Shown one piece after another: positions 986 through 17,571 of a DNA stretch of 22,339 bases; positions within the stretch are counted from its first letter, which is position 1; each line of letters starts with the position of its first letter. The DNA is taken from positions 1 through 22,339 of the forward strand of contig PIVQ01000046.1 of the NCBI GenBank assembly GCA_003354055.1, in the 5' to 3' direction. Source of the stretch: Desulfobacteraceae bacterium. GTDB lineage: Bacteria > Desulfobacterota > Desulfobacteria > Desulfobacterales > Desulfobacteraceae. Position numbers and translations under genes: made by a program. The notes beneath the pieces are model-generated. The model worked only from the letters and a program-made list of their open reading frames with translations, ran no database searches and was not told where the DNA came from.

Positions 986-992
986 AGCACCA

Positions 993-997
993 TCCTT
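993..997 (-). promoter_or_regulatory. Ribosome binding site deciding the TTG start of the DppC-like permease
   Basis: AAGGA on the minus strand, 7 nt before TTG (983-985) and 1 nt after the upstream stop codon. No ATG lies nearby in frame, so this site is the main argument for a TTG start. Confidence 0.6.
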
Positions 998-998
998 A

Positions 999-1970
999 TC
1001 AATAGGTAATCCTCGGATCCAAATACGCATAGAGGAGATCCACCACCAAGTTGGCCACCAGTACCACAAGGGCGATCAGCAGAAAACAGGCCTGGGCCAG
1101 TGGGTAGTCATTATTGCTCACAGCAAAGATCAACTCACGGCCTATCCCTGGCCAGGTAAAAATCTGCTCGGTCAATGCCCCGCCATTGATGGAAAAGGCA
1201 AGGCTTAAGCCCACACTGGTGATCACAGGTAACGCGGCATTTTTGGCTGCATGCTTATCCCGGATTATTTTTTCGCTCAACCCTTTGGCCCGGGCCGTGA
1301 TAATATAATCCTCCCGGAGTACGGACAGCATGGAAGACCGCATGAGCAAAAGATACGACCCCAGGTTGATAGTAAACAAAGTCATCAAGGGAAGAATCAT
1401 GTGGTGGATCAGGTCCAAAAGCTTAACAAAGGAAGAGGAATTGCCTACCCAGAGTTCAGGGGAAAGGACGCCTCCAAGGGGAAACAGCTGGAACTTGAAT
1501 CCCAGAACCCAAAGCAAAATAAGGGCAAACCATGGGATAAACAGGGTATAGCATACCAGTGCGGATATAGACATGAAGTTGTCCAGCCGGCTGCCCTTGT
1601 TCCAGGCGGCCACCTTCCCTAAGAAAACCCCCACCACGGCGGCAAGTACCGTTGCTGTCGTAAACAACAGGATGGTCCATCCCAGACGCGCCTTGATGAT
1701 CTGGGATACAGGCTCGCCGTAGTGAAAGGAGACCCCGAAATTACCGACGATAAAGTTTTTTAGATAAATAACGTATTGTTCCCACATGGGTTTGTCCAAC
1801 CCCATCTGGGAAATCAGATGCCTCATGTCTTCCGGTGTGAGCATGGGATCCACGATCTTTGAAATGGGGTCTCCGGGACTCAGCCTGAACAAAAAGAACA
1901 ATACAGTCAGAATAATAAAAAAGATAAAGGCAATTTCAATGAGTTTACCAATTATATACTGGAGTCTCAT
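999..1970 (-). CDS. DppB/OppB-type peptide ABC transporter permease
   Basis: A 323-aa integral membrane permease, the partner of the DppC-like protein. It shows the classic family start: an N-terminal transmembrane helix ending in FLFRLSPGDP, then a large loop, then about five more spans. The EAA-type loop is TARAKGLSEKIIRDKHAAKN, followed by the LPVITSVG helix. The C-terminus (LVVDLLYAYLDPRITY) matches the DppB end consensus of a Tyr-hydrophobic-DPRI/V pattern. The start ATG lies 3 nt after the stop of the solute-binding protein gene, so translation is probably coupled. The substrate cannot be read from the permease; peptide, nickel and glutathione importers all share this fold. Confidence 0.93.
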   Translation of the reverse strand: MRLQYIIGKLIEIAFIFFIILTVLFFLFRLSPGDPISKIVDPMLTPEDMRHLISQMGLDKPMWEQYVIYLKNFIVGNFGVSFHYGEPVSQIIKARLGWTILLFTTATVLAAVVGVFLGKVAAWNKGSRLDNFMSISALVCYTLFIPWFALILLWVLGFKFQLFPLGGVLSPELWVGNSSSFVKLLDLIHHMILPLMTLFTINLGSYLLLMRSSMLSVLREDYIITARAKGLSEKIIRDKHAAKNAALPVITSVGLSLAFSINGGALTEQIFTWPGIGRELIFAVSNNDYPLAQACFLLIALVVLVANLVVDLLYAYLDPRITY

Positions 1971-1973
1971 AGG

Positions 1974-3710
1974 CTATTCCACAGGCCGAAGGACACACAT
2001 GGACCAGATATTTCCAATGCCGTCCACCTTGGCCACCCATCCCCTGAAATTTTCATTGAGAGTAGCCTCAATAATATGGGGATTGTACAGGGGCAGGTAA
2101 GGGACATCTTCCAGAACCATCCGTTGCATCTCCAGAATCAGTTTTTTCCTTTCAGCCGTATCGACCAGAGTTCTCTGCATATCTGCGATTTCATCAAATG
2201 CAGGATTATTATAGCCGCTCATATTCCAGCCCCTGGGCTTGTCGTTTTTTGAATAAAAGAACGCCCGCAGATAGTCCGGATCCAGATTCAACTTTCCATA
2301 TCCCAGTACAAAGGCATCGAATTCGTGCTTCCCCTTAACCGTATCCAGAAGAGAGTTAAAGGCCATGGGACGAGAAAAGGCAGGCAATCCCAATTCCCTG
2401 ATCCACTCCTGAATCATGGTACCGGCAAATGCCCGTTTGGGATCATAATCGGCCGGCGGGGTCAGGATGACGAATTTATCCATCTTCTTCCCGTCGGGCA
2501 ATAAAATATCCGAAGGGGTAACAATTTTTCCGTCCTGCGTCACCGGCGGTGTTTTCCAGGAATATCCGGCATCGGTCAAAATTTGAGCAGCCTCTTTGAT
2601 GCGAGTGGCTTTGGATTTACCGTAGCTGTATTTTTTCACATCCGGATTGTGCCAAAAATGGTTGCCCGACGGAATGATGGAATGCATGGGCGTTCCGAAA
2701 TTCTGCAGGATACGGGTCAGGATAAACTCTTTATCAATAACCGTTGCAACGGCCAGGCGCACAGCCTTGTCATTAAAAGGGGCCTGACGGAGGTTGAACC
2801 CCAGGTAGTAGAGCGCGCTCTTTTTATTGAAATAAAGATCAACATTGTCCTGCTCTTTAAGGTCTTTTATATATCCGGGCTGAATGTCCCCCCAATAATA
2901 ATCAATATCACCTTTTTTCAGAGCAAGGATGGCCACATCAGATGTGCCGTATATCTGAAACAGAATATCATTCACATAAGGTCCCAGCACATGGCCGCCG
3001 ATTGTCTGGCCCGCACCAAAAAAATGAAGATTTTTCTGCATGTGGAGAAAGGCACCTTTTTTATACTCAGCCAGTATAAAGGGGCCGGTTCCCATGGGTT
3101 TTTCAACACTGTGATCCTGAAGGGAACGCAGGGGTTTTTCTTTGGTCAGCGCCTCTTTGGCCACAGCCTCCCATTCCTTCCTGGAAACAATGGGGGCGGT
3201 CAACACCCGGGACATAAAAATGGCAGAGGGTTTCTTCAAATAGAAGACCACGGTGTGCGCATCAGGAGCTTCCACCTTCTCTATAATCTTCCATTTGGAA
3301 TAGTACCTGGGGATCTTAAAATCAAAGAACAACTGCTTGGTAAACAGAACATCGTCACTGGTAAACTCAGAGCCGTCGGACCATTTTGCCTGGCGTAGTT
3401 TTACCGTATAGGTGAGGGCATCTTTGTCAAATATGGGATCTTCGGCCGCCAGCCATGGGATAATCTCAAGGGTTTCAGGATGGCGATCGTAAAGGGGCTG
3501 GTAGATCTGGCTCAAAATTTTTCGGGAATTGGCATCTGTTCCCAGCCAGAGGTTCAGAGATCTTGGTTCTTCTGGCAGTCCGATTTTTAAAAACCGGTTT
3601 TCTTCTGTTTTCTGGCAGGCTAAAAACATTATAGAGGCCAGGGTTAACACCCCTGCCAATAAAAGGAATCTAAAAATGCATTCAGTCTGCGTTTTTAACC
3701 GATGGGCCAT
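1974..3710 (-). CDS. Extracellular solute-binding lipoprotein, peptide/nickel family (SBP_bac_5)
   Basis: The ligand-binding subunit of the importer, held on the outer face of the inner membrane. From the ATG at 3710 the protein is 578 aa. It has a charged start, a hydrophobic stretch (FLLLAGVLTLASIMFLAC) and a lipobox Cys at residue 32. The mature part has family landmarks: NLWLGTDANSRKILSQIYQP, YTVKLRQAKWSDG with SDDVLFT, and near the end a VLEDVPYLPLYNPH motif. The frame is open to 3770, but starting there would add 20 residues before the signal peptide. The chosen start overlaps the upstream ATP-grasp gene by 29 nt, with no strong ribosome site, which suggests coupled translation. The ligand is unknown; the gshB-like neighbour makes a glutathione-like or modified peptide worth considering. 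Confidence 0.9.
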   Translation of the reverse strand: MAHRLKTQTECIFRFLLLAGVLTLASIMFLACQKTEENRFLKIGLPEEPRSLNLWLGTDANSRKILSQIYQPLYDRHPETLEIIPWLAAEDPIFDKDALTYTVKLRQAKWSDGSEFTSDDVLFTKQLFFDFKIPRYYSKWKIIEKVEAPDAHTVVFYLKKPSAIFMSRVLTAPIVSRKEWEAVAKEALTKEKPLRSLQDHSVEKPMGTGPFILAEYKKGAFLHMQKNLHFFGAGQTIGGHVLGPYVNDILFQIYGTSDVAILALKKGDIDYYWGDIQPGYIKDLKEQDNVDLYFNKKSALYYLGFNLRQAPFNDKAVRLAVATVIDKEFILTRILQNFGTPMHSIIPSGNHFWHNPDVKKYSYGKSKATRIKEAAQILTDAGYSWKTPPVTQDGKIVTPSDILLPDGKKMDKFVILTPPADYDPKRAFAGTMIQEWIRELGLPAFSRPMAFNSLLDTVKGKHEFDAFVLGYGKLNLDPDYLRAFFYSKNDKPRGWNMSGYNNPAFDEIADMQRTLVDTAERKKLILEMQRMVLEDVPYLPLYNPHIIEATLNENFRGWVAKVDGIGNIWSMCVLRPVE

Positions 3711-4704
3711 CCACTGGGTGTTTGGGTGCAATGATCTTCTCCTCAATAAAATCCACAACCTTTGACTCAAGCTTCACATCATTAAACCGGTTGATCCTGG
3801 GAATTCCTCCCGGGCTGACGCAATTTATTTCAACCAATTTATCCGCGATTATATCAATCCCCACAAAATAAAGTCCATCTTTAATCAAGCGGGGTTTAAT
3901 TCTTTTGCATATCTGCCTCTGTGCCGGTGTGATTTCATGCTTAAACGCCTGGGCACCGGCATGCACATTTGTCCGAAAATCGCCTGTAACCGATTTTCTG
4001 CCCATCGCACCCAGGATCTCGCCGTTGAGCAAGAGAATTCTTATATCACCCTCTTGTTTTACGGTTTTCAGATACTCCTGGACCATGATGGGGGTCCGAG
4101 CAGGATAGGGTTTACTGGCCCGGACATAATAATTGATCAGGGAACTTAAATTTTCCTGATCACGGTTAGAGACCTTGATAACCCCGTGACCGCCGTGGCC
4201 CTGGAGCGGCTTGATCACCATGTCTCCGCCAAAATCATCAATGATTTTCCTTAACCTATTGGGATCTCTGGACACGTGGGTCTGAGGTATAATATCAGGA
4301 AAATTAAGTATATATGCCTTAGAGCTCCCATTGATCTGCCCATAGGTTGCATTGAGTATGAAGACATCATCGCTCACAGGTCCTAAAAATGCCATGACCT
4401 CGTAATTTAAAGGCGGATCTTTGCGCAAAAACAACGCATCCAGATCGGTTACCGTTTCAAATATAAGTTCATCCTGCTCCAGGCAATGGAGCAAAGCCTG
4501 CCAGTAGAGCTCAAGGCCTAAGCCCGCAGGAACCGTAATGTTCCTCATCCTGGCCACAACCTTATTGTTCCGGATATAAAGATCATGGGGCTCTAAAAAG
4601 AACACGGAATGCCCACGCTGATTGCATTCATACATGATATGGGCAGTGGTCTCCCACACAGGATCAATCTGCCTTAAATCATCCATTAAAAATCCGATTT
4701 CCAT
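3682..4704 (-). CDS. gshB: Glutathione synthetase-like ATP-grasp ligase
   Basis: GshB joins gamma-glutamylcysteine to glycine using ATP in the cytoplasm. The 340-aa product aligns well by eye with E. coli GshB over its length. It has the N-terminal MEIGFLMDD and an LFLRKDPP motif (~92-98), then an ATP-grasp loop, VIKPLQGHGGHGVIKV (~163-178). A DIRILLLNGEILGAMGRK segment follows, then FVGIDIIADKLVEINCVSPGG (~280-300) with the metal-binding Glu/Asn. The frame is open to 4887, but the GshB homology begins at the ATG at 4704. AAGG lies about 11 nt upstream of it. It heads the importer operon and overlaps the binding-protein gene. No gamma-glutamylcysteine ligase gene is in the window, so a related peptide ligase acting on another substrate is possible. 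Confidence 0.85.
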   Translation of the reverse strand: MEIGFLMDDLRQIDPVWETTAHIMYECNQRGHSVFFLEPHDLYIRNNKVVARMRNITVPAGLGLELYWQALLHCLEQDELIFETVTDLDALFLRKDPPLNYEVMAFLGPVSDDVFILNATYGQINGSSKAYILNFPDIIPQTHVSRDPNRLRKIIDDFGGDMVIKPLQGHGGHGVIKVSNRDQENLSSLINYYVRASKPYPARTPIMVQEYLKTVKQEGDIRILLLNGEILGAMGRKSVTGDFRTNVHAGAQAFKHEITPAQRQICKRIKPRLIKDGLYFVGIDIIADKLVEINCVSPGGIPRINRFNDVKLESKVVDFIEEKIIAPKHPVDGPSVKNAD

Positions 4705-4907
4705 AACTCTATTACCTTGGCACGACTGGCTCAACATATCACCTACATTTAAATGAAAAGGACACAAGATAAGGTTCTTTTTATGCCATGGGGCGTAAGT
4801 TGTCAAACGCTTATCTTTTTTATGGGGAAACTGCGGGACAAACCCGTTCAATTGATGTATCTTGGCTTTTTCTGAACTATAAAACAACGACCAAATGAGA
4901 GACCGAT

Positions 4908-6140
4908 ATGAGCGACACCCTTTTCATTCAATTCTACGGCAAAACCAACAGCGGATGGTATGACCTGTGCAATGGATTTTCAGATACCTGGGACCTGTGT
5001 AAATCAAAGGGAGATTTTCTCTGGCTGCCACATGTTCAGGATGCAAACAAGTGGTACGATCCCGATGCATACGGAGATCAGCCCCTGCCCATACAAAAGG
5101 GAACTGCCTATGTCAGTGCCAGCTATGTGAACCATCTCTACCAGGCCTATATATGGGCCACCCAATACCCGAATATCAAATTTATAGTGGGCGGACCTGT
5201 GGCTGCCGAACGATGCGGTGACGGCAACGGCTGGAATTCCGTACATTTCAAGGTGGAAGGAAATCTGCCGTCCAACCTGCATCTCACAGGAGCTAGTGTG
5301 GAATCCCTGTTTGATGTACCCGAATTTTCCGGAACCTGGAAGCTTTCAATCCCGGAGAATGTACCGGACGGCAGCCGGGTCTATTTTTCCTACACCCTTG
5401 AAAATCTCTGCTATTGGAAAAAATGCCCCTTTTGCTCCATTGCCCAGCACACCCTTGACCATGCCAGAAAACGACCGGAATTCGGCCTGGAGTTCAAAGA
5501 CCTGGACTTCAACGGTCATAAAATCGTCCGCCTTAACACAGGGTCCATTACCCCCGAACACATTCGTAAAATTCTTCCCGATCTTCCTAAAAGAGATGAC
5601 ATTGAATACCGGTATTTCATGCGGGCAGCCAAGGCAGAGACCAATGCCCTGAGAGAAGTACTGGATAAGATGAAAGGTGACCTGCCGGCCTCAACTCTGG
5701 GATTCGGCATTGAATTTCCCTCGGACCGCATGTGGAAATACCTGAACAAGGGCACTCGCATGGATGAGGTCATTGAGACCCTTGATTTCTGCCGGGACGC
5801 AGGTTTCAAGGTCAACGCCAATGTCATCCTGGGCTGGAACAATCTCATTGACCAGGACCTCAAAGATCTTGAAACCTTCATGGACAGCCTGGCAGAAAAC
5901 GCCGTCACCTCCCTGCAGCTGCGCTGGCTCTTTGCCCATCCCTATACAAAAATCTATGAAGAATACGACGGGGTAGAGGACAGCATCCGCCTAGGCCCCT
6001 TCTACTGCGGCTTTAATGTAAAGGTTGATGACCACCAGAAAAAGATGAACATGGCAGCAGCCGATATCATCAAGGAAAAATGCGACACCAAAAACATAAA
6101 ACTGGAAGGCTATAAAAACCTGAAAAAAGGAGACTTGTAA
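4908..6140 (+). CDS. Radical SAM protein with B12-binding-like N-terminal region
   Basis: A 410-aa protein of the radical SAM superfamily, enzymes that use a [4Fe-4S] cluster and S-adenosylmethionine for radical chemistry. The cluster motif is CYWKKCPFC (Cys168, Cys173, Cys176). The spacing is CX4CX2C rather than the usual CX3CX2C. The N-terminal ~150 residues resemble the vitamin B12-binding-like fold of many such proteins: alternating strands and helices with YVSASYVNHLYQAYIWATQ and KFIVGGP. Later segments (LGFGIEFPSDRMWKYLNKG, VNANVILGWNNL) follow the barrel pattern of B12-binding radical SAM proteins. It is transcribed away from the gshB-like gene, with a 203-bp gap. Substrate unknown; some relatives modify peptides. 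A decayed paralogue fragment lies at about 13300-13395. Confidence 0.85.
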   Translation: MSDTLFIQFYGKTNSGWYDLCNGFSDTWDLCKSKGDFLWLPHVQDANKWYDPDAYGDQPLPIQKGTAYVSASYVNHLYQAYIWATQYPNIKFIVGGPVAAERCGDGNGWNSVHFKVEGNLPSNLHLTGASVESLFDVPEFSGTWKLSIPENVPDGSRVYFSYTLENLCYWKKCPFCSIAQHTLDHARKRPEFGLEFKDLDFNGHKIVRLNTGSITPEHIRKILPDLPKRDDIEYRYFMRAAKAETNALREVLDKMKGDLPASTLGFGIEFPSDRMWKYLNKGTRMDEVIETLDFCRDAGFKVNANVILGWNNLIDQDLKDLETFMDSLAENAVTSLQLRWLFAHPYTKIYEEYDGVEDSIRLGPFYCGFNVKVDDHQKKMNMAAADIIKEKCDTKNIKLEGYKNLKKGDL

Positions 6141-7001: not shown

Positions 7002-7490
7002 TCATGCTTTCCAGTGCCTTTTTGTCGTGGATTTCTTTTTTTGAGGATCTCTATAAAGGGCAGGTTTTTCAATCCAAGGTTTACGTCCGGTGTTATTGCA
7101 AAAAAATACTCTTCCATCCTTTATCCAAAAGTGGCTACAGCAGCCTCTGTTTTGCCAAATTGATGGGTGCAGAGTTGGTCTACCGCTCGGGCTTTTTCTC
7201 AAATTCCAATGCGGTTTATGAATTGACTGTAATGACAAAGAAATAACGTTGCCACAACCGCAAGGGCATTTAAAAAGAACCCAATAAGGTTTCCTCTGAT
7301 GCATAACCGCAATGAAATCTCTTTGACCAACAGCATTATTTGATGGGGTTTTATCCAGTATTTTTACCGAATGATAAAAAATATCTGGTTTTGTTGCTTG
7401 TCGAGGGGCTTCAGGACGAATTTTAACATTTTTTGATGTAGGTCTAAAAAGATCTGAGAAAAAACGTTTCAGCCACTTAACTATTGCCAT
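7002..7490 (-). CDS. DUF6527-family protein (putative peptidase of the ubiquitin-like system)
   Basis: A 162-aa protein, last gene of the operon. The N-terminal ~35 residues are basic and low in order. The core has a Cys cluster, FKCPCGCGN (Cys75, Cys77, Cys79), then HKPHWNLRK and TLHPSIWQ (His108, Ser110). NRGCCSHFWIKDG (Cys117, Cys118, Ser119, His120) and a final VFFC follow. This CPCGC / TLxPSI / SHFWIxxG pattern is what I associate with DUF6527, a zinc-binding-type small domain found beside bacterial Ubl, E2 and E1 genes. From memory, it has been proposed as the peptidase that matures or removes the Ubl. The ATG at 7490 is preferred (AGGTG 6 nt upstream); a GTG at 7499 is the alternative. 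It overlaps the E1 gene by 14 nt. Confidence 0.8.
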   Translation of the reverse strand: MAIVKWLKRFFSDLFRPTSKNVKIRPEAPRQATKPDIFYHSVKILDKTPSNNAVGQRDFIAVMHQRKPYWVLFKCPCGCGNVISLSLQSIHKPHWNLRKSPSGRPTLHPSIWQNRGCCSHFWIKDGRVFFCNNTGRKPWIEKPALYRDPQKKKSTTKRHWKA

Positions 7491-8940
7491 TGATTTCACC
7501 TAATAGTGGTATTTCTAAACGATATTTCCCTTCATCTCTGAGCAGGAAGGTGTGCAAGCGACAATAATCGCATTCAGGATTGTCAACAGGCGTATTAGAG
7601 TGTATTTCCATATGCACAAAATCTATCCATATATTATCCTGTCGTAAATCATCCGGGAGACAGCGATATGGTTTTATCAGATTCATAAATGTGGCAACAG
7701 CATTATCCGCGGATCCACTAGTGAAAGGTCCCACGCCTGGTGCCTGTTCACCTCCCCCTGTTAGATAATATTCCTGCGCCAATGTTTCAGCATCAAGTTT
7801 GGCTAGTTGAGGATTGTCTTTGGTGGCCTGCTCATAATCAAGTTTAGTCTGGGTGACAACGCGTTGACAGCACAGGCAAGCACCATGTTCCGGCAGAATA
7901 CAGCTGACACGCCCCCGATGGTCTCTTAAATATGGAGATCCCTCTGAATCAACATCAATTTTACCCGTCAAGCCGACATCGATAAGGGCTTGAGCATAAT
8001 AATACAGAGCTTGATTCATGAAGTCTCTGCCAGCAACGTCATCAGTGCAACCGAATATGACATCTGCACTTGAAAGTGCATCAAGGGCTTCTGGGGATTC
8101 ATTTAAATATTTATCAAATGCCGCAACAGACAGATTTTTTAATTCAAGACTGTTGATATAATCTGCAAGAATCCGTGCTTTATTTTTCCCAATATCCTTA
8201 GACCTGAAGCCCCGAACCCGGTTCAGGTTTGATCCTTCCAAGTCATCGCCGTCGATGAGTATCAGTTCCCCTATGCCGGCACGGGCCAAAAGTGTGGCAA
8301 GAGGCGAACCTGTTCCTCCAACTCCAACGACTGCCGCACGCAGTGAATTAAGTATGGTATTAAAAGGTTTGCCAAATGCGGCTTCCTGCCGCTTCAAAGT
8401 TTCTGAAGGCTCATTGTCGCCGCTAAATCCATGAAGTTCGATTTTGTCACTGAGGACACTGATATGCCTTACTGGAATGATCTGATTTGGATCTGTCCCT
8501 TGCCGGATTCTGGCTTGCCATTTCCCATCATGTAGCACCATGGAAACCAAAAAGGCCGCTTCCCCATTGGAGCCGGAAAGGCCGCGTAAAATATTGAGTT
8601 CATTGATATTATCTTTAACTGAAAAGCCCCGATACCCATTAGGATGGTTATGGACAAAACCCAAGTGCAGATTTTCAGTTTCGCAACGAAAATAAACCTC
8701 AGGCAATTTGCGCATATTAATTTTTAGGTGGGTTTCTGAGCTATCTATTATCCAATCGTCAACGAGCTTAATGGTTTCCACTGCCATAAATCTGTCCGAT
8801 TTCGGCAAAGTTTTAACCGTTCTACTTAAACAGCGGAACAGAACGAAAGCACCACGTTCATGGCCATCCGGGTGATCACACAACCAGCTTTGAAGTTCAT
8901 TATTTAAAGAACCAAGTAATGTAATTCTGTTTCCTGTCAT
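7477..8940 (-). CDS. JAMM-E1 fusion: JAB-type isopeptidase plus ThiF/E1-like adenylating enzyme
   Basis: A 487-aa fusion. Residues ~20-160 form a JAB/JAMM metalloprotease domain: Glu28 in HERGAFVLF, then the zinc motif HNHPNGYRGFSVKD (His97, His99, Ser107, Asp110), all intact. Residues ~185-460 form an E1-like domain. It has nucleotide loop VGVGGTGS (206-211), IDGDDLEGSNLNR (Asp230, Arg241), Lys254 and CTDD (298-301). Two zinc half-sites are CLCC (355-358) and CDYC (457-460). It should adenylate the Ubl C-terminus, and the JAMM part may process the Ubl or release targets. Unusually, there is no Cys between 359 and 426, where MoeB has LTC; here the matching text is LTGGGEQAPGVGPFTSGS. Start ATG overlaps the E2 stop by 4 nt. 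Confidence 0.92.
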   Translation of the reverse strand: MTGNRITLLGSLNNELQSWLCDHPDGHERGAFVLFRCLSRTVKTLPKSDRFMAVETIKLVDDWIIDSSETHLKINMRKLPEVYFRCETENLHLGFVHNHPNGYRGFSVKDNINELNILRGLSGSNGEAAFLVSMVLHDGKWQARIRQGTDPNQIIPVRHISVLSDKIELHGFSGDNEPSETLKRQEAAFGKPFNTILNSLRAAVVGVGGTGSPLATLLARAGIGELILIDGDDLEGSNLNRVRGFRSKDIGKNKARILADYINSLELKNLSVAAFDKYLNESPEALDALSSADVIFGCTDDVAGRDFMNQALYYYAQALIDVGLTGKIDVDSEGSPYLRDHRGRVSCILPEHGACLCCQRVVTQTKLDYEQATKDNPQLAKLDAETLAQEYYLTGGGEQAPGVGPFTSGSADNAVATFMNLIKPYRCLPDDLRQDNIWIDFVHMEIHSNTPVDNPECDYCRLHTFLLRDEGKYRLEIPLLGEINGNS

Positions 8941-9353
8941 TTGTTAGCGTCCGGATTACGTAAAGCCCACTCAATACGGTCAAGAATTTTCTGAATATTA
9001 TCGACTTTAGGCTTCCAAGTATTGGGCTTGTAGTGTCGTGACCATCGACAATATTCTTTGCCTTTAAAATGCCTTGGGTCAGATCCGCCGACTTCAGAGA
9101 CATTGGGGATGTTTTTCCCATCAGCACGTTTTAATAAAGGAAAAACCCAGAACATATCACAGCCAATTGTGTTGTAATTCCCGGGGATAACGACAAGGAT
9201 TTCAACTGTTTTTAAAATCTTTCCATCAGAAACGTATTTGCCATCCGGTAAAGGATAATTCTTGATCACTAAAAATCGTACCGATTCTTCTTCTACATAT
9301 TCCAACCCTGAATCTTCTAAAATTTGATAATCATTTTCGTGAAGAAGTGGCAT
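8937..9353 (-). CDS. E2-like ubiquitin-conjugating protein (prokaryotic E2 family E type), Ser in place of catalytic Cys
   Basis: A 138-aa protein with the condensed E2 fold. Early text is LVIKNYPLPDGKY, then ILVVIPGNYNTIGCDMFW (the central strands), HFKGKEYCRWSRHYKPNTW and a C-terminal helix DNIQKILDRIEWAL. In eukaryotic E2s the catalytic Cys stands eight residues before a conserved Trp (C-LDILRSQ-W in UbcH5). Here Ser105 of WSRHYKPNTW stands exactly eight residues before Trp113, and Cys102 is three residues off register. The protein should therefore receive the Ubl on Ser, if it does so at all. It overlaps the E1 fusion (ATGA) and the Ubl gene (TAATG), so the three are translationally linked. 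Confidence 0.88.
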   Translation of the reverse strand: MPLLHENDYQILEDSGLEYVEEESVRFLVIKNYPLPDGKYVSDGKILKTVEILVVIPGNYNTIGCDMFWVFPLLKRADGKNIPNVSEVGGSDPRHFKGKEYCRWSRHYKPNTWKPKVDNIQKILDRIEWALRNPDANK

Positions 9354-9592
9354 TATTTATGGCCTGCCTCAGAACTTGATTCCTGGGCATAAAACTTTTC
9401 AATCCCCTTCTCACTCAGGTCAATTTTCTCATCGAGTTCAACAAGGCGACCTGGATTGCCTCTGACCTTTAAAAAGAGATCCATACTTTCAGGTATACCG
9501 GGGCCTAATCCTCTTACTTCCCTTCCTGAAATAAACTGGGTGTCCCATTCGTACATAGTGTTTTCAATTTTGAATTTGAATTTTTCTTTCAT
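9353..9592 (-). CDS. Ubiquitin-like protein, single multiubiquitin-type domain
   Basis: A 79-aa protein, one beta-grasp domain. It follows the multiubiquitin pattern: KFKFKIENTMYEWDTQFISG, REVRGLGPGIPESMDLFLKV, then RLVELDEKIDLSEKGIEKFY. Such proteins are the modifiers activated by the neighbouring E1 and passed to the E2. The family often has several domains in tandem; this one has only one. The C-terminus reads AQESSSEAGHK, so it lacks the usual exposed GG. Cleavage after the Gly (third from the end) by the JAMM domain or DUF6527 protein may be needed. AGGAG lies 6 nt before the ATG. The gene follows the DUF2188 gene by 12 nt. Confidence 0.88.
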   Translation of the reverse strand: MKEKFKFKIENTMYEWDTQFISGREVRGLGPGIPESMDLFLKVRGNPGRLVELDEKIDLSEKGIEKFYAQESSSEAGHK

Positions 9593-9604: not shown

Positions 9605-9853
9605 TTAATTTTCAATATCTCTCGGAGGGAAGGGGTCATTGCCAGGTGCTATGGTATCTTTGCTTCTGATTCTGCCATTAACACCTTTTGTCGTTAACTC
9701 CCCGCCACCCTGAGTAACCAGCATTTTCTTTGCTGCATCTATCGCCTGCTTTTGGGTTTCATGCAGGCTGGATGCGCGGCTTGCATCATTCCTTTTATTA
9801 ACCCAGTCCCCTTGTGAATTTTTGTAAACCATGCGGTCACGATACTTACTCAT
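9605..9853 (-). CDS. DUF2188-family small protein, first gene of the Ubl operon
   Basis: An 82-aa protein. It shows the family pattern: an early strand ending GDWVNKRND, then RASSLHETQKQAIDAAKKML, GGGELTTKGVNGRIRSKDTI and GNDPFPP at the end. The function of DUF2188 is not known to me. Many copies occur as stand-alone small proteins, often in stress or mobile contexts. Its place right behind the operon promoter, 12 nt before the Ubl gene, means it is co-transcribed and could be a substrate, partner or regulator. I start it at the ATG at 9853; a TTG directly before it is a weaker choice. GGGAG sits 8 nt upstream. Confidence 0.85.
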   Translation of the reverse strand: MSKYRDRMVYKNSQGDWVNKRNDASRASSLHETQKQAIDAAKKMLVTQGGGELTTKGVNGRIRSKDTIAPGNDPFPPRDIEN

Positions 9854-9872
9854 CAAAAACTCCCTTCTAAAA

Positions 9873-9892
9873 TAGGATTATTTTATATCCTA
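9873..9892. promoter_or_regulatory. Candidate operator 1, palindrome AGGA-N10-TCCT
   Basis: TAGGATTATTTTATATCCTA has matched arms TAGGAT and ATCCTA. It lies just downstream of the -10 box of the Ubl operon promoter, over the expected transcription start. It shares AGGA-N10-TCCT with operator 2. The centres are 63 bp apart, six turns of DNA. Binding by the divergent WYL regulator is inferred. Confidence 0.55.
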
Positions 9893-9896
9893 ATTA

Positions 9897-9932: not shown

Positions 9933-9958
9933 TTTAAGGAAAATTTAATATCCTTAAA
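9933..9958. promoter_or_regulatory. Candidate operator 2, palindrome AGGA-N10-TCCT
   Basis: Perfect 8-bp arms TTTAAGGA (9933-9940) and TCCTTAAA (9951-9958) around a 10-nt AT spacer. It sits just upstream of the -35 box of the Ubl operon promoter, between it and the WYL gene. Confidence 0.55.
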
Positions 9959-10038: not shown

Positions 10039-10926
10039 ATGCGGCGGAGCCAAAAAAAAAGAATAGAATTTATAGAAAACAGACTTTATTGGGAAGGAAA
10101 GATCAGCAGAAAAGACCTGACGGATTATTTTGAAATTTCAATCCCTCAAGCGACAAAGGATATAAAGGCTTATATCGAAAAAACCCCTGATAATATTTTT
10201 TACGACAACAGTGCAAAACTTTATTTGCCTTCTGACAAGTTCAAGCCCGCTTTAATATCACCAGACAGTGAGCTATATCTAAATCGGTTGCATTCAACAG
10301 ATAGTGGAAACGATTACTTTTTCTTTGGTGCTGTACCAAATTCATATATGCTGCCAACTGTTAAAAGAAAAATAGAGCCGTCAATATTAAGGTCTCTGTT
10401 GGATAGTATTCGAAATAACAATGCAATTTACATAGAATACCAGTCTATGAGCAACCCGAAACCTTCCTGGCGGTGGGTTACTCCTCATGCTATCGGTTTT
10501 GACGGGTACCGTTGGCACACAAGAGCTTTTTGCCACAACAGCAAAAAATACAAAGATTTTCATTTGGGACGGATTTTAAAGATAGGTGCTGAAAAAGAGC
10601 ATATTGGGGATCATACAAGTGATTTCGCATGGTTCAACAACATCACTTTTGAAATTGCACCTCATAAAGAATTGTCAGATGGACAAAAAATATGTGTCGA
10701 GTTTGACTTCTGTATGGAAAATGGGAATTTGAATTTTGATGTTAAAGCAGCATTTATTTTTTACGTCATGAGATCCTTTGGATTCGACTCTAAACATTAT
10801 GAAAGATCTCCTAATGAGCAACAAGTGATTCTTTTAAACAGACAAGAAATAATAACCCAAAAGAAAATTATGGAACAAATGTCTGAAAAGAAAATGGCAG
10901 ATACTGCTGTTTTTAATAATAATTAA
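10039..10926 (+). CDS. WYL-domain transcriptional regulator divergent to the Ubl operon
   Basis: A 295-aa DNA-binding regulator. Residues ~3-60 form a winged helix-turn-helix (KKRIEFIENRLYWEGKISRKDL, then DYFEISIPQATKDIKAYIE). Residues ~125-200 form a WYL domain with YIEYQSMSNP, WRWVTPHAIGFDGYRWHTRAF and FHLGRILKI. The C-terminal ~80 residues resemble the extension of CapW/BrxR-type regulators. Those proteins control phage-defence islands and are thought to sense nucleic acid or nucleotide ligands. It is head to head with the Ubl operon over a 185-bp gap containing two matched palindromes, so it most likely represses that operon. The start ATG follows GGAG at 11 nt. Confidence 0.88.
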   Translation: MRRSQKKRIEFIENRLYWEGKISRKDLTDYFEISIPQATKDIKAYIEKTPDNIFYDNSAKLYLPSDKFKPALISPDSELYLNRLHSTDSGNDYFFFGAVPNSYMLPTVKRKIEPSILRSLLDSIRNNNAIYIEYQSMSNPKPSWRWVTPHAIGFDGYRWHTRAFCHNSKKYKDFHLGRILKIGAEKEHIGDHTSDFAWFNNITFEIAPHKELSDGQKICVEFDFCMENGNLNFDVKAAFIFYVMRSFGFDSKHYERSPNEQQVILLNRQEIITQKKIMEQMSEKKMADTAVFNNN

Positions 10927-11074: not shown

Positions 11075-11480
11075 AAAAGCTCAGTTTTTTCAAAAAAAGC
11101 CCAACACAAAATATTTGGGTTGAAGAAAATTGCATTTGATTTACGAAGAATCCTAATTATAGAGGTTCCTTTCAGTAAAAAATAACCATCCACGTTTATA
11201 TAACTGATATCAAACCACGAGGGTTCAGGCATATGGGGGGAAGGGTCGAGGCGGCGTAACCTGAAGGTCACACGTAAATGTGCGGGGTGTCATGGACTGA
11301 AAACACCGGGCATTTCCGCTTCTCAAACGGTCACGACGACCGGTTGAGATTTAGCTGAGCGCCCTTCCCCCCATATGCCTCCTCCTCAATTGGCACCCCA
11401 TTTTAATAAACACACTCAGATCCATTATATACAATTTTAAAAAAACAGAGTTGATAAGCATTCCGTCAGCATCACACGGT
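11075..11480. other. Gene-free stretch holding a repeat element
   Basis: No gene is supported. A 66-codon minus-strand frame (11271-11071) crosses the repeat and looks accidental. The right half holds the inverted-repeat element at 11227-11380, described separately. The left part is AT-rich. Confidence 0.45.
11227..11380 (-). repeat. Repeat element with perfect 19-bp inverted ends, copy Y
   Basis: AGGCATATGGGGGGAAGGG (11227-11245) and its exact complement (11362-11380) bound a 154-bp unit. Inside, 11252-11341 is the reverse-complement match of repeat X (6371-6460). The unit also holds a strong hairpin at 11321-11349: 12-bp arms with one mismatch around loop ACGAC. No coding potential and no clear target duplication. 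The outer right flank plus end, CCATATGCCTCCTCCTCA, recurs at 18908-18925. It may be a short non-autonomous element or a structured palindromic repeat. Confidence 0.7.
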
Positions 11481-12452
11481 TTATTCCCGGCAGAACTTTG
11501 TCCGGTATTCTTTTGGCAGAAGATTGGTGTGTTTTTTAAAGAGCTTTCGAAAGAAGCTTGTGTCCTCGTATCCCACCGAGACTGCAATCTCACTGAATGA
11601 TCCCGAAGTTCTTTCCAACTGATGTTTGGCAAACTCAACCCTTAGCCGTTGAAGGTACAGAAGCGGGGTATTTCCGGTTGCCGCTTTGAATCGGCGTTCA
11701 AACACCCTGCGGCTGAGGCCGAAGTTTTCGGCAAGGGATTTGATATCGATATGCCGGTTGTAATTTTCTTCCAGCCATTTTTGTATAGACCGGATCTTTG
11801 AGTCGTTATGCTCTGTTGCAAACTGATAAACGGCATAGGGTTCCTGGGACTGTCTGCCGATATCGTGGAGCATGGCCTTGGAGCTTTCAAGGGCGATATC
11901 CCTGCCGCAATATCTTTCAACCAGGTAAATAGAAAGATCAATGTATGAATTGCATCCCCCTGAGCTTAATAAATTTCCCTCGTCAGTAATTATCTTTTGG
12001 GATTGCAAATCAACTTCCGGGTACCTTTTTCTAAAATCATTTTCAAATCCCCAGTGAGTGGTGGCAGTTTTCCCGTTAAGTAATCCTGTTTCAGCGAGGA
12101 TGTAGGTTCCGGCACAGACACTGGCGATGGTAGCCCCGTTTTTGTTTTGTGTCTTCAGCCAGTCAATGGCTTCATAGCTTGTCTCAAGGGTGCGGTAATC
12201 TGAGAATGATGAGATGAGTATCAGATCAGGGGATTCAATATTCCAAATTGAACAATGGGGGTAAACGGGTGTCTGATTTTTACTTCGGACAGGTTTTCCG
12301 TCCTTGGACACAATTTTCACATCAAAATAGGATACCTCATCTTTTCCGGTAATAAAATTCCAGGTCGCGCCGGTCTGACAGAAGACATCCATCGGCCCCA
12401 TGACTGAAGAGGCTAAGACATTATCCAAGGCAAGTATGGCAACGGTAATCAT
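11481..12452 (-). CDS. GlxA-family transcriptional regulator (DJ-1/PfpI-like domain plus AraC-type HTH)
   Basis: A 323-aa two-domain regulator. Residues ~1-170 form a class I glutamine amidotransferase-like (DJ-1/PfpI) sensor domain with LDNVLASSVMGPMDVF and the nucleophile-elbow text SVCAGTYILAETGLL (Cys113). Residues ~220-320 form an AraC-type pair of helix-turn-helices (IKSLAENFGLSRRVFERRF and FSEIAVSVGYEDTSFFRKLF). Such proteins bind a small ligand, often an amine-derived compound, and activate nearby catabolic genes. Starting at the ATG at 12452 puts GGAG 8 nt upstream and drops nine extra residues. It faces away from the transglutaminase-like gene; its target is unknown. Confidence 0.92.
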   Translation of the reverse strand: MITVAILALDNVLASSVMGPMDVFCQTGATWNFITGKDEVSYFDVKIVSKDGKPVRSKNQTPVYPHCSIWNIESPDLILISSFSDYRTLETSYEAIDWLKTQNKNGATIASVCAGTYILAETGLLNGKTATTHWGFENDFRKRYPEVDLQSQKIITDEGNLLSSGGCNSYIDLSIYLVERYCGRDIALESSKAMLHDIGRQSQEPYAVYQFATEHNDSKIRSIQKWLEENYNRHIDIKSLAENFGLSRRVFERRFKAATGNTPLLYLQRLRVEFAKHQLERTSGSFSEIAVSVGYEDTSFFRKLFKKHTNLLPKEYRTKFCRE

Positions 12453-12557
12453 ATAATTTCTCCATATTGACGCAATCAACTCTTTTTTAGTCGTTTTTGC
12501 CGCTTTTCACTTTTTTGTCAAGTGATATTTATGGGTTACGGAACGTATGTGATTCCC

Positions 12558-12675
12558 TTAGGCCGAGTATCAAAAATAAACCTCCCAGGTGGTTGGCGCG
12601 GCATTTTCAAAGGCTGCTATCCACAGGGACCGCTCACTTTTGCGCGGACTGTTTTATTTTGATGCCGCGCCTTAA
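12558..12675. mobile_element. MITE-like element, family 2, copy A
   Basis: About 118 bp. Its ends are complementary over ~24 nt: the left reads GGCCGAGTATCAAAAATAAA and the complement of the right reads GGCGCGGCATCAAAATAAAA. TTA flanks both ends as a direct repeat. A subterminal copy of the end motif, GGCGCGGCAT, occurs at 12595-12604. The same structure recurs at 16539-16657. No ORF. It ends 24 bp before the transglutaminase-like start codon and so may carry part of that gene's control region. Confidence 0.7.
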
Positions 12676-12699
12676 ACCAAAAAATGAAAGGATAAATCC

Positions 12700-13371
12700 A
12701 TGAAATCTTCATTGGAAGAGACCTATTTTTGCAATTACAGCCATCCGTCAATTCAAACGCCGGCCCGAAAGCTTTCCGAACAGACAGACAATCAGGCAGA
12801 GCTTGCAAAGAGGACATTTTACTATGTCAGAGATACGATTGTTACCGGATATGACCTATATAAAACCCGGGCATCCGACATATTGAAAAAAAGTTACGGT
12901 ATCTGCTGGGGCAAATCCCTTCTTCTGATTGCTTTGCTCAGATGCAATAACATTGAGGCCAGATTTGGAACAATCCCTGTTCACAGAAAATTTATAGAGC
13001 CCCTGATCGGACAATTCTATTATCTGGCAAATTCCCCGTATAACCATTGTGTTGCCCATGTACTCATAAATGATAAATGGACGATTCTCGACCCGGTACT
13101 TGATAAAAACACCTATGAAACATTTTTTGCACCGAAACAGGTTCCATGGAATATTGAATGGAACGGAAGAGATGATTGCCGACTGTATACTGATCACGTG
13201 GTTGGCGGGCTGAAAACATATGAAGATATCGACGGGGCAATTAATAATAAAGCCGGCAATAAAGAACTGCCGGCATTTATAGCAACCCCGGTATATAATT
13301 TCCTTAACAAAAGGATCTGGACGAGATCATTGAAACCCTTGATTCCTGCGGGGAGCCAGACTTCAAAGTAA
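12700..13371 (+). CDS. Transglutaminase-like superfamily protein with a recombined C-terminus
   Basis: A 223-aa protein with the cysteine-protease-like transglutaminase core. The catalytic set is visible: Cys69 in YGICWGKSLLLIALLR, His120 in NHCVAHVLINDKW and Asp131 in TILDPVLD. Bacterial members of this fold are mostly proteases or amidases. The C-terminal tail from about FLNKRIWTRSL is not native. At the DNA level it is a piece of a radical SAM gene read partly out of frame (see 13300-13395). The gene may thus be a truncated or hybrid version of a longer one. AAGGA stands 7 nt before the ATG. A family 2 MITE lies directly upstream. Function unknown. Confidence 0.8.
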   Translation: MKSSLEETYFCNYSHPSIQTPARKLSEQTDNQAELAKRTFYYVRDTIVTGYDLYKTRASDILKKSYGICWGKSLLLIALLRCNNIEARFGTIPVHRKFIEPLIGQFYYLANSPYNHCVAHVLINDKWTILDPVLDKNTYETFFAPKQVPWNIEWNGRDDCRLYTDHVVGGLKTYEDIDGAINNKAGNKELPAFIATPVYNFLNKRIWTRSLKPLIPAGSQTSK

Positions 13372-13395
13372 CCGCCAATGTTGTTCTGGGCTGAA
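13300..13395 (+). pseudogene. Remnant of a second radical SAM gene
   Basis: Starting at a FLNK codon run in the transglutaminase frame and then shifting frame, the DNA reads DLDEIIETLDSCGEPDFKVT then ANVVLG and a stop. The intact protein at 4908-6140 has MDEVIETLDFCRDAGFKVNA then NVILGW (residues ~284-306). The nucleotide match to about 5739-5832 is clear by eye. It ends abruptly at a stop codon shortly before a family 1 MITE. Only some 30 codons survive, so this is a deletion scar, not a gene. Confidence 0.75.
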
Positions 13396-13401
13396 AGAAT
13401 C

Positions 13402-13447
13402 TTAGGAATCGTTACAAAAGATCAAGTAATTTTTGAGCCGATCCTTA
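13402..13447. mobile_element. MITE-like element, family 1, copy 2 (internally deleted)
   Basis: The first 18 nt of the element (to ACAAAA) are joined directly to the last 28 nt (from GATCAAG). The flanking TTA at each end is kept. In the full copy ACAAAA occurs at both junction points, about 90 bp apart, so a deletion between these short repeats explains the 46-bp form. Confidence 0.7.
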
Positions 13448-13462
13448 TTGACAAGGATCGGC
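13437..13462. repeat. Perfect 10-bp hairpin overlapping the MITE right end
   Basis: GCCGATCCTT, loop ATTGAC, AAGGATCGGC. The right arm is the outer end of a second family 1 element in opposite orientation, so two element ends may meet tail to tail. No T-run follows, so a terminator is less likely. Confidence 0.55.
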
Positions 13463-13556
13463 ACTGGGCTCGGGAGTTTCATATAAATATGTCATGGCCA
13501 GTCTTTGTCGTGTATCCCTTTGAGTTGCAGGATCTGATGATATTGGGTTCTGTTTG

Positions 13557-13586
13557 TTGACGTTTAGGATGGACTGTGAATAAAAT
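13557..13586 (+). promoter_or_regulatory. Promoter of the DMT permease gene, possibly giving a leaderless transcript
   Basis: TTGACG (13557-13562), 18-nt spacer, TAAAAT (13581-13586). The expected start of transcription falls at or next to the ATG at 13593. No ribosome site is present before the ATG. Confidence 0.5.
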
Positions 13587-13592
13587 CATTTT

Positions 13593-14459
13593 ATGAATTG
13601 GTTTTTTTATATTGTTTTGGCCATAGTCACTTATGGCGTGCTGAATTTTTTGTACAAACTGGCTGCACAAAAGGGTTTGCCTGGTGCTGCGTTGGTGAAT
13701 AAGTCGGCGATTACCGTTGTAGCTTTAGCAGCTGGTGCCGCTTGGCTTCTCGATTGTTCTTTTTCGAACTGGAAACAAATACTGTTTTTTGCGTTGTTTA
13801 ATTCGGCTTTTTTTGTGTTGGAATCCCTTTCTAAAGTAAAAGCGTTAACCTTTATTCCCACGTCGTATTATTTTAGTTTGTCCAATTTTAACCTTATTAT
13901 TGTGCTGGTGTTATCTGTCACTGTTTTAGGTGAACGACCCGATGTTTTTCAGTGGTGTGGTATTGGCGGTATTTTTGCGGTCATGGGTCTTTTGGCTATT
14001 GATTCGCAAAAATCAAAAATTAGTGTTTTATATCTCAAAAAGGGACTTTTTTATTTATTGCTCGCTGTATTGGGATTGGGATTGTCGGTCTTTGTGGGCA
14101 AACTGGCTTCCACTCGGGTTGATCGGGTTGTGTATATTTTATTTTCGTACATACTCACCACTGTATATACGTTTGCAGTTTCAAAAATAAGTCAAAAACG
14201 GCGAGAACCGGTAGACAACATTAAACGACAGTATACTTATGCCATGGGGTGTTTGATAGGCGTACTTAACTTTATTGGGTATTTTTGCTTGTTAAAAGCG
14301 TTTTCTCTGGGGCCGCTCAGCTTGGTGCAAAGCACGTTTTCGTTGGTTATGGTTATCCCGGTTTTATTATCCGTATTAATACTTAAAGAGGAATTCAGTC
14401 AAATAAAATTGCTGATGTTAGCTGTAGCGTGTGGTGCTGCAGTTTTGATTAATTTTTAA
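13593..14459 (+). CDS. EamA/DMT-superfamily transporter
   Basis: A 288-aa, ten-helix inner-membrane protein of the drug/metabolite transporter superfamily. The two five-helix halves are visible. The first starts MNWFFYIVLAIVTYGVLNFL and contains SYYFSLSNFNLIIVLVLSV with LGERP. The second starts KGLFYLLLAVLGLGLSVFVG and ends VIPVLLSVLILKEEFS before a last helix. These repeated 'LGE' and 'LKEE' texts at the fourth-fifth helix turn are typical. Members mostly export amino acids, nucleosides or drugs. The codon use is T-rich compared with the operon at 1-4704, a hint of foreign origin. It converges on the amidohydrolase gene, with a shared terminator hairpin between. Substrate unknown. Confidence 0.88.
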   Translation: MNWFFYIVLAIVTYGVLNFLYKLAAQKGLPGAALVNKSAITVVALAAGAAWLLDCSFSNWKQILFFALFNSAFFVLESLSKVKALTFIPTSYYFSLSNFNLIIVLVLSVTVLGERPDVFQWCGIGGIFAVMGLLAIDSQKSKISVLYLKKGLFYLLLAVLGLGLSVFVGKLASTRVDRVVYILFSYILTTVYTFAVSKISQKRREPVDNIKRQYTYAMGCLIGVLNFIGYFCLLKAFSLGPLSLVQSTFSLVMVIPVLLSVLILKEEFSQIKLLMLAVACGAAVLINF

Positions 14460-14486
14460 GCTATCTGCTGTGAAAGTGGCGTTATT

Positions 14487-14512
14487 CCTTCTCCCTACCG
14501 GGCAGGAGAAGG
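14487..14512. terminator. Hairpin between convergent genes
   Basis: CCTTCTCC, a 10-nt loop, GGAGAAGG. It lies in the 83-bp gap between the ends of the permease (plus) and amidohydrolase (minus) genes. T-runs are poor, so it may be a weak two-way terminator or an mRNA 3'-end stabiliser. Confidence 0.5.
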
Positions 14513-14542
14513 TTAGAATAAGAGTAAAAATTGACTCTTGGG

Positions 14543-15826
14543 CTATGTTTGTAGTGGCTTGCCGCTGATTTGAGTTCCCCCGACTATTACTTGGTTTACA
14601 TTTCGATCGTCACCACGAAACACCAGTGCGGCTAACAGATCTTCGATTTCTTCGGGTTCGTTTAATGGTGTTAGTTGTGCCGGCATTGTGGGTGATACAA
14701 CAATAAGGTCTGCTTCTTTGCCTTGCTCTATCGAACCGATTGTTTTTTGGAGTCCCAGTGCTTTTGCGCCACCAAGTGTTGCTAAGTTAAAGAGTTCGTG
14801 AATCGATAGCTGAGGTGAAACTTTAAGCGCATCTTCCATTACATTAAACATGGACATTCCTTTGCCACCCCCTAAATCACTGCCTAGTCCGCAGGGTATT
14901 TGATAGTCTGAAAACAACCCAAGATCGCATTGTTTCCCTCCGGCCAACAAATTTGCTCGTGGACAATGGGCAATGGCTGCGCCGGATTCGGCCAATAATT
15001 GGGGATCTTTGTTTTCTAAGTACACCCCGTGGGCCAATACCGTTTTGGGCGTTAATAGTCCCATTTCCAAATAGATTTCTGTGTCACTTTGTTTCCCGGG
15101 AAAAAGTTTCAACATGCTGGATAAACCCTCTTCATCTTCGGACAAGTGATTTTGAACTCTGCCATCAAATTCTTTTGCCGCCCACGCCATGCCTTCCATT
15201 AGGTCTGCAGATGCACAATACGCTGGTCGAACGGTAAAGCAATAACGGAGCCGGTCGTTTTCGGTGCGGTTCCAATGTTTCCAAAGACGAATAGAATCCG
15301 AAATGTTTTGTTTTGCTGGCCGCGAAAGTGGGTCTGGTAGATTTTGATCACCGGTATTCATTCCCATGATCACTCGCATACCTGACGTCTTTGCTAAGGT
15401 AAAAGCGATATCGGTGGCATTGTAAAAATAAGGGCCATGTGCACAAACGGTTGTGGTTCCGGTACTAATTAAATCGGCAAAAAAACGTTCCGCAGTGAAT
15501 GCCGCGTATGCGTCTTCTTGAAAGCGCAGTTCCAACGAGTAGATAACTTTTAGCCACGTCATCAGATCTGGTATCATTGTACACCAGTCATAGTGGCAGA
15601 CGTGCTGATGGCAATCAATTAGCCCAGGTAAAATTAATTTATCCGGCATATCAATGCGTTGTCTCTTTGGAAACTGTTGGACGATCTCAGCGTTGTGACC
15701 CATAGCCTCTATTTTTCCGGCGGCGTCGATTGCGATGGCACCATTTGGGATGTCCAGCCAATCTCCCTGGACTAACGGCGTATAAACTCGTCCACCAAGG
15801 ATGGTTCCTTTAATTGATGTCTTCAT
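14543..15826 (-). CDS. Guanine deaminase-like metal-dependent amidohydrolase
   Basis: A 427-aa member of the amidohydrolase superfamily, in the guanine deaminase/ATZ-TRZ branch. Metal ligands are visible: HQH (His73, His75) in PGLIDCHQHVCH, QNHLSEDEEG (His227, Glu230), LAHGVYL (His266) and GLGSDLGGG (Asp317). The segment SGAAIAHCPRANLLAG and the ending ATLGGAKALGLQKTIGSIEQ then GKEADLIVV match GuaD closely by eye. It should hydrolyse an amino or amide group on a small ring compound in the cytoplasm. The guanine substrate is only a suggestion, since the region after the HxH motif (CHYDW) differs from GuaD. It overlaps the GNAT gene by 4 nt (ATGA). Confidence 0.87.
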   Translation of the reverse strand: MKTSIKGTILGGRVYTPLVQGDWLDIPNGAIAIDAAGKIEAMGHNAEIVQQFPKRQRIDMPDKLILPGLIDCHQHVCHYDWCTMIPDLMTWLKVIYSLELRFQEDAYAAFTAERFFADLISTGTTTVCAHGPYFYNATDIAFTLAKTSGMRVIMGMNTGDQNLPDPLSRPAKQNISDSIRLWKHWNRTENDRLRYCFTVRPAYCASADLMEGMAWAAKEFDGRVQNHLSEDEEGLSSMLKLFPGKQSDTEIYLEMGLLTPKTVLAHGVYLENKDPQLLAESGAAIAHCPRANLLAGGKQCDLGLFSDYQIPCGLGSDLGGGKGMSMFNVMEDALKVSPQLSIHELFNLATLGGAKALGLQKTIGSIEQGKEADLIVVSPTMPAQLTPLNEPEEIEDLLAALVFRGDDRNVNQVIVGGTQISGKPLQT

Positions 15827-16485
15827 TGGTCTAACGAATTGATCATGGCCAGCCCATGGTCAGCGCTCTCGACATCAGATTCCATGCATTGGACGATGAT
15901 GCCCAGTGCTTTAAATCCCAATTGTTGGTACATGGCCACTACCGGTTCAAATACTTGACCGCTTAGCACCTGTCCCACATATGTATCTGCAGTAGCCCCG
16001 CGATTTTTCACTAAAAAGCTGGCCAAACCCGGAAGTCGGGTATCGGTCAACACCAGTTTTAATCCAAGCCGACGACCCAAGTTCAGTCTTCCTTGATTGA
16101 GCAATGTACCAATTTTTTTTCCCCGCGCGTCGGGATGCACACAAACCGACACAAAGTGTAGGCAATTGCCTGTGGGTGTATGAGTTTTACTGATCCAACC
16201 ATCTGCGCAAAGTTCTGACCAGGAGATGGGTTTTATATCCGAGGTAAAATTTATGATTTGACAAGTAGCCATTCCCACCAATCGATTGCCTATGAACGCC
16301 CCCAAACAACCTTTTCCAAAAGTATTCATTCTCTCACGTAGTTGAATCGCTGATGCTTGCACATCAACAGGCCATGACGCTTGCTCCAACTCCATAATGA
16401 TGGGAAGTTCGTTCTGTTCCAGTTGGCGTACCACTGGTGTAGTTAGTTGATCTTGTCCCTTTTTAGTTTCATTTATTGTTTCCAT
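15823..16485 (-). CDS. GNAT-family N-acetyltransferase
   Basis: A 220-aa acyl-CoA-dependent N-acyltransferase. The acetyl-CoA binding motif A is clear: FVSVCVHPDARGKKIGTLLN (~111-130), with RGKKIG as the pyrophosphate loop. The C-terminal part FEPVVAMYQQLGFKALGII matches the last strand-helix of the fold. The frame is open to 16605, but that portion runs into the family 2 MITE. I choose the ATG at 16485, preceded by a G-rich GGGGGGGAGG that ends at the start codon. This is an unusual ribosome site with little spacing for the AGG part. The stop overlaps the amidohydrolase start, so the pair is coupled. It might acetylate the amidohydrolase substrate or product. Confidence 0.87.
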   Translation of the reverse strand: METINETKKGQDQLTTPVVRQLEQNELPIIMELEQASWPVDVQASAIQLRERMNTFGKGCLGAFIGNRLVGMATCQIINFTSDIKPISWSELCADGWISKTHTPTGNCLHFVSVCVHPDARGKKIGTLLNQGRLNLGRRLGLKLVLTDTRLPGLASFLVKNRGATADTYVGQVLSGQVFEPVVAMYQQLGFKALGIIVQCMESDVESADHGLAMINSLDQ

Positions 16486-16538
16486 CCTCCCCCCCCATGT
16501 AAAAATACCGTGTGTAGAGTTTACTTCTCTGTAAACGC

Positions 16539-16657
16539 TTAAGCCCGGTCTCAAATTAAAACCACCCAGGTAGTTGGCGTGGCATTCCAATCCACAGCCA
16601 CTCACCTGGGATGGTTAATTTTGTACCGAAAGATTTAATTTTGACGCCACGCCTTAA
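16539..16657. mobile_element. MITE-like element, family 2, copy B
   Basis: About 119 bp, matching copy A (12558-12675) at both ends and in its subterminal CCCAGGTAGTTGGCGTGGCA. The left end reads AGCCCGGTCTCAAATTAAAA and the complement of the right end GGCGTGGCGTCAAAATTAAA. TTA flanks both sides. It fills most of the gap between the bicupin stop (16661-16663) and the GNAT start. It may split an ancestral operon or carry the promoter for the last two genes. Confidence 0.7.
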
Positions 16658-16660
16658 GCC

Positions 16661-17533: not shown

Positions 17534-17571
17534 TATGATTCCTTTCCTCTCAAACAGATGAGACAAAAATT

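Follow-up and report, generated by a model that had tools for sequence, protein, structure and literature searches.

Can an E2-like protein carry its ubiquitin-like partner (Ubl) on a serine? The question is raised by a gene at 8937..9353 (minus strand) of the window, a stretch of 22,339 nucleotides from a Desulfobacteraceae bacterium, whose 138-residue product an earlier note had read as an E2-like protein with serine at the catalytic cysteine position. Our preferred reading, to which we give a probability of roughly 85%, is an operon of the Bub (bacterial ubiquitination-like) type in which a single-domain Ubl, an E2, a JAB-E1 fusion and a DUF6527 protein each have a gene of their own, placed beside a CapW-like WYL regulator; the E2 would carry the Ubl on Ser105 through an oxyester bond.

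Gene content and layout of the operon

The open reading frame at 8937..9353 encodes a BubB-like protein with a Prok-E2_E match of 1.3e-32 (Pfam), and its predicted structure is E2-like, so this part of the earlier description stands. So does the placement of the gene within a Ubl/E1/JAB operon, and the proteins of the operon match the BubA, BubB and BubCD proteins of solved Citrobacter structures. Upstream lies the gene for a BubA-like Ubl of 79 residues (9353..9592, minus strand) with a single Multi_ubiq domain (PF14452, 4.7e-9, 36.8 bits against a cut-off of 24.5) and a conserved Gly77 followed by His-Lys; among solved structures it matches multi-ubiquitin 9d59 (1.8e-10), BilA 8u38 (5.3e-6) and, weakly, Citrobacter BubA 9ea8 (0.0022). 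Downstream is a BubCD-like JAB peptidase-E1 fusion of 487 residues (7477..8940, minus strand), with a ThiF domain at residues 183-363 (PF00899, 3.8e-32), followed by a DUF6527 gene (7002..7499, minus strand; PF20137, 1.4e-21) that starts at GTG 7499 or ATG 7490 and thus overlaps the end of the E1 gene from 7477 to 7490 or 7499. Base 9353 belongs to both the stop of the Ubl gene and the start of the E2 gene, and the end of the E2 gene runs into the start of the E1 gene within 8937-8940; overlapping in this way, the genes form one operon by layout.

The operon opens with a DUF2188 gene (9605..9856, minus strand; PF09954, 1.6e-17; PADLOC PDC-S16, 4.6e-20), which precedes the Ubl gene by 12 bases and is likely co-transcribed with it. 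No homologue was matched at 1e-4 in the DNA of the related loci L001-L045, where flanks are often short, so the gene looks like a local addition. DUF6527 follows E1 in 21 of the 22 loci L001-L022, the DNA of L009 ending inside E1. Its model is mostly beta (pLDDT 84.9), with no close solved fold found, and an alignment of 47 relatives has 18 invariant columns, including the cysteines of a CPCxC motif, Cys117, Ser119 and His120 (162-residue numbering). We regard it as a putative second enzyme or binding module of the pathway; no mention of it was found in the literature searched. At L015 (6395-8242) E1 and DUF6527 share one open frame, and at L001 (7855-8274) the DUF6527 match is divided between two frames.

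Divergent from the operon is a WYL regulator gene (10039..10926, plus strand; PF13280, 2e-11), whose product matches Stenotrophomonas maltophilia CapW (7tb6) at 2.8e-50 over residues 2-271 and is, on that match, a relative of CapW; a WYL relative adjoins the operon in 3 of the loci L001-L022 (3/22). The promoter region between them holds an inverted repeat with perfect 8-bp arms, TTTAAGGA-N10-TCCTTAAA (9933..9958, no strand assigned), which is a possible operator, and a second inverted repeat at 9870-9895; neither was seen in L002, L005 or L006. Further away is a perfect 19-nt inverted repeat with arms at 11227-11245 and 11362-11380, 116 nt apart, for which Rfam gave no match. No Rfam family reached its gathering score in the window, no tRNA was found, and no PADLOC model matched the E2, the Ubl or DUF6527. 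The flanks (92-6140 and 11481-21064) carry genes of transport, metabolism, regulation and chemotaxis, among them a peptide ABC transporter, glutathione-synthetase-like, radical SAM, amidohydrolase, cyclase and MCP genes and an AraC-type regulator; there is no evident defence island around the operon.

Ser105, Trp113 and the cysteine at position 102

The motif stretch of the E2, KEYCRWSRHYKPNTWKPK, contains Cys102, Ser105, His107 and Trp113; the codons of its RWSRH core (residues 103-107) lie at 9033..9047 (minus strand), with that of Ser105 at 9039-9041. Citrobacter BubB is the closest solved E2 (2.1e-8) and the only solved E2 recovered by a profile built from 46 homologues. The two proteins have WSRH in common, Ser105 aligning with its serine, and BubB has Gln at the position of Cys102. 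The HPN tripeptide that precedes the active site of canonical E2s is absent from the 138-residue sequence. The earlier note had placed Ser105 at the UbcH5 catalytic register from its distance of eight residues to Trp113. The serine and the fold were borne out, and the distance is eight in the window protein and in 128 of 132 homologues among the matches listed, but in only 20/39 rows of a wider genome set, the remainder ranging from 5 to 12, and the spacing is by itself not enough to set the register against UbcH5. Alignment of the family to UBE2D2 with hhalign gave nothing significant (E 0.094 over 10 columns, 0.36 in global mode), and Ser105 was not placed on UBE2D2 Cys85 by this sequence-profile comparison. 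With the register taken from fold and motif, the protein would depart from the canonical catalytic-cysteine type: the site residue is Ser in every row aligned, and Cys102 is not family-wide.

The earlier note had also proposed a homologue alignment, with a variable Ser105 counting against its reading. Ser was present without exception in 171 aligned rows, made up of 132 homologues among the matches listed (120/120 close homologues plus 12 proteins from a profile search) and 39 rows from the wider genome set (Ser 39/39, Trp113 39/39, His107 38/39). Ser105 and Trp113 are the only invariant columns; Tyr60 and His107 come next, each at 170/171. Such retention of serine goes far beyond chance. The 39 rows represent 38 different E2s, L044 having entered twice, and the 171 include the window protein in both sets (P0001 among the 132), which can overlap wherever a listed protein comes from a genome locus. 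The homologue samples were the best 120 of 168 and the best 120 of 477 matches, and a distant cysteine version could lie beyond these. Identical sequences were removed before counting (L024, L030, L039 and L045 duplicate earlier loci, and L019 duplicates L018). The patterns used to find loci L001-L022 included YCRWSRH, which is a source of bias; the HMM and plasmid sets are free of such patterns. HMM searches of 395, 398, 395 and 299 genomes (1487 in total) returned 4, 9, 9 and 1 matches (23 in total), of which 4 were already known, 3 were judged not to be E2s and 16 were new; all 16 carry the serine and one (L041) has Cys102. The three set aside (L033-L035) fell below the Pfam cut-off, had stops in 2/3 and showed no E2, Ubl or E1 profile match there, while L026, also under the cut-off (23.6 vs 25 bits), was retained since its neighbours on either side are a Ubl-like ORF and a JAB-E1. 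No relatives were found in phage records at E 1e-5, and 110 pattern matches in viral contigs included no relative.

Invariance of this kind has a second possible meaning: Ser105 could be structural, since Trp113, which is no nucleophile, is equally invariant. Carried further, this would make the protein a pseudo-E2, a UEV-like scaffold, with targets receiving the Ubl directly from the adenylate on E1. A site without Cys and an E1 without a crossover Cys would suit such a scaffold, as would the conservation around Ser105 of Arg103, Trp104, Arg106 and His107, kept in 165 to 170 of 171 rows. Against it, none of the other proteins scanned in the window matches an E2 family (20 scanned in all), and only Ser105 and Trp113 are invariant, as expected for a nucleophilic serine. 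We consider the scaffold unlikely.

Cys102, three residues from Ser105, could instead be the nucleophile, in which case an ordinary thioester would form on it and Ser105 would be structural. It is near-fixed in close relatives (117/120 close homologues and 128/132 overall among the matches listed; Cys65 is Cys in only 20/120). It is present, however, in only 18/39 wider genome rows and in none of the seven plasmid loci that were read, from 46 plasmid records with a match; all seven have the serine, with Gln at the Cys102 position. BubB has Gln there too, and in the predicted model Cys102 sits within strand 99-103. A tree of 45 E2 sequences places the window protein inside a 23-row clade (support 100/99) that contains all 18 Cys102 rows. 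Five loci inside this clade (L013, L016, L017, L020 and L021) lack Cys102 yet keep Ubl, E2, E1 and DUF6527, and for that reason Cys102 appears dispensable for the pathway. On the tree this position needs four changes, in keeping with a single gain plus three losses (to Asp, Leu/Phe and Ser); strongly supported branches alone force at least two changes. This count is only a sketch, because column 102 was left in the tree alignment and L026, L044 and L043 form long branches. On its distribution we reject Cys102 as a shared nucleophile of the family, and an ordinary thioester on Cys102 in this protein is very unlikely. Joint use of Cys102 and Ser105 within the clade, such as a Cys-to-Ser relay or redox gating of an oxyester E2, we hold to be distinctly unlikely; if true, it would mean carrier chemistry unlike that of both classical E2s and Citrobacter BubB. 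The Cys102-bearing clade forms a natural contrast set.

The E1, the Ubl and a proposed route through Ser105

The N-terminal region of the E1 fusion has an HNHP...S..D pattern (His97, His99, Ser107 and Asp110), which we take to be the JAB metal motif; Pfam returned the ThiF domain alone, with no match for a JAB domain, and conservation is 38/38 rows for both His97 and His99 and 37/38 for Asp110. Citrobacter BubCD (9ea4) is the best solved match of the fusion, at 8.7e-29 and spanning residues 3-430. Read by eye from the alignment, columns 386-408, presumably the crossover region in name and role, contain no Cys in any row that spans them (36 of the 38), and this fits a thioester-free route. Cysteines found elsewhere are Cys298, kept in 35/38 rows in a GCTDD stretch that we assume to be common to ThiF/MoeB proteins, and the zinc-type cysteines 355, 358, 457 and 460, present in 28, 28, 27 and 24 of 38 rows. 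The ThiF and MoeB models of NCBIfam also match the fusion (best 9.8e-21), as they might if the Ubl/E1 pair were a sulfur carrier system or served small-molecule biosynthesis and not protein conjugation. All 25 NCBIfam matches, however, lie under the curated cut-offs, BubCD ranks first among the solved matches, related loci have an E2 gene or domain next to JAB-E1, and a CapW-type regulator is present, which together leave that role extremely improbable.

Gly77 of the Ubl is kept in 22/22 close and 12/14 far rows, and eight Ubls terminate exactly at this glycine (L003, L018, L022, L041, L043, L046, L050 and L052). At another eight loci (L023, L027-L029, L037, L038, L040 and L042) Ubl and E2 share one open frame with the glycine kept ahead of the E2, so that there it must be released by cutting, a task that would fall naturally to the JAB domain.

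From the observed gene content, predicted fold, invariant Ser105, patchy Cys102, Cys-less E1 crossover and conserved Ubl glycine we infer a route through Ser105 whose chemical steps, the oxyester bond included, would run as follows. The JAB domain would trim the Ubl after Gly77, taking off His-Lys, and the ThiF domain would adenylate the exposed glycine. As the E1 crossover has no Cys, the Ubl would then move from E1 onto Ser105, forming an oxyester with the E2 and not a thioester, probably straight from the adenylate. The E2 would hand the Ubl on to its target, presumably an amine, and JAB, perhaps with DUF6527, may reverse or edit the products. The thioester-free idea is testable from three sides: Ser105 of the E2, the Cys-less E1 crossover and the single-glycine end of the Ubl.

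Relation to known Bub systems

Among the plasmid loci, Nostoc pC052_E, Synechocystis pSYSX and Paracoccus pMARC5 share the four genes of the window operon and their order (annotated multiubiquitin, E2/UBC, ThiF and DUF6527), with E2s that are 33-35% identical to ours and in which Gln replaces Cys102; DUF6527 is annotated in 6/7 of the plasmid loci read. Upstream of these three operons (L046, L050 and L047, respectively) is an ImmA/IrrE peptidase gene and not a WYL gene, with an annotated HTH gene also upstream in the Nostoc and Synechocystis loci. In a Citrobacter koseri plasmid (L049), ATP-binding and DNA-binding genes lie upstream of the Bub-like operon. Beside the Nostoc operon lie two gene pairs, methyltransferase-restriction and nucleotidyltransferase-SAVED. 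Plasmid records of Synechocystis PCC 6803, a common laboratory strain, carry a Bub-like operon; in strain IPPAS B-1465 the plasmid that corresponds is called pSYSX. With these loci, the serine-E2 pattern now reaches seven plasmid loci in addition to the 171 aligned rows (132 among the matches listed).

One report counts 544 Bub operons, 219 of them adjoining CapW or CapH+CapP, and states that protection against phage has not been shown for Bub operons (PMC13373217); another describes such systems as appearing mainly active in phage defence (PMC12687455). We therefore call the operon a stress- or defence-linked conjugation system and not a proven defence system.

The E1 matches BubCD far better than CBASS Cap2 (8.7e-29 vs 1.5e-7), and E1 and E2 are separate ORFs here (7477-8940 and 8937-9353), unlike the PADLOC E1-E2 or CBASS Cap2 type. 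Bil (BilA-D) and CBASS Cap2 follow the same bacterial Ubl/E1/E2/JAB logic as the window operon. Compared with the canonical E2s Ubc8, UBE2S, UBE2L6 and UBE2D2, the window E2 lacks both the site cysteine and the HPN tripeptide. The closest known system is the Citrobacter Bub pathway (BubA, BubB and BubCD; PDB 9ea4, 9ea5, 9ea8, 9eae and 9eav), whose structures we take to be those of Ye et al. 2026 and whose published mechanism reportedly passes through an oxyester intermediate. The numbering of 9eae_C (238-361) and a C. koseri plasmid protein of 363 residues that carries WSRH point to a single chain made up of BubA and BubB in Citrobacter. The window system differs in having separate Ubl and E2 genes, one Ubl domain and Cys102 in its E2, and its E1 keeps all four zinc-type cysteines, the first pair of which is missing in Citrobacter BubCD.

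In conclusion, with a Multi_ubiq-type Ubl, a Prok-E2_E protein related to BubB, a JAB-E1 related to BubCD and Ser at the E2 motif, the operon belongs to the recently described Bub pathways. The serine noticed at the outset is confirmed, its interpretation is supported and the chemistry is inferred. Within the Bub pathways the system stands as a good further example, from a clade with separate genes and a single Ubl, and does not amount to a novel kind.
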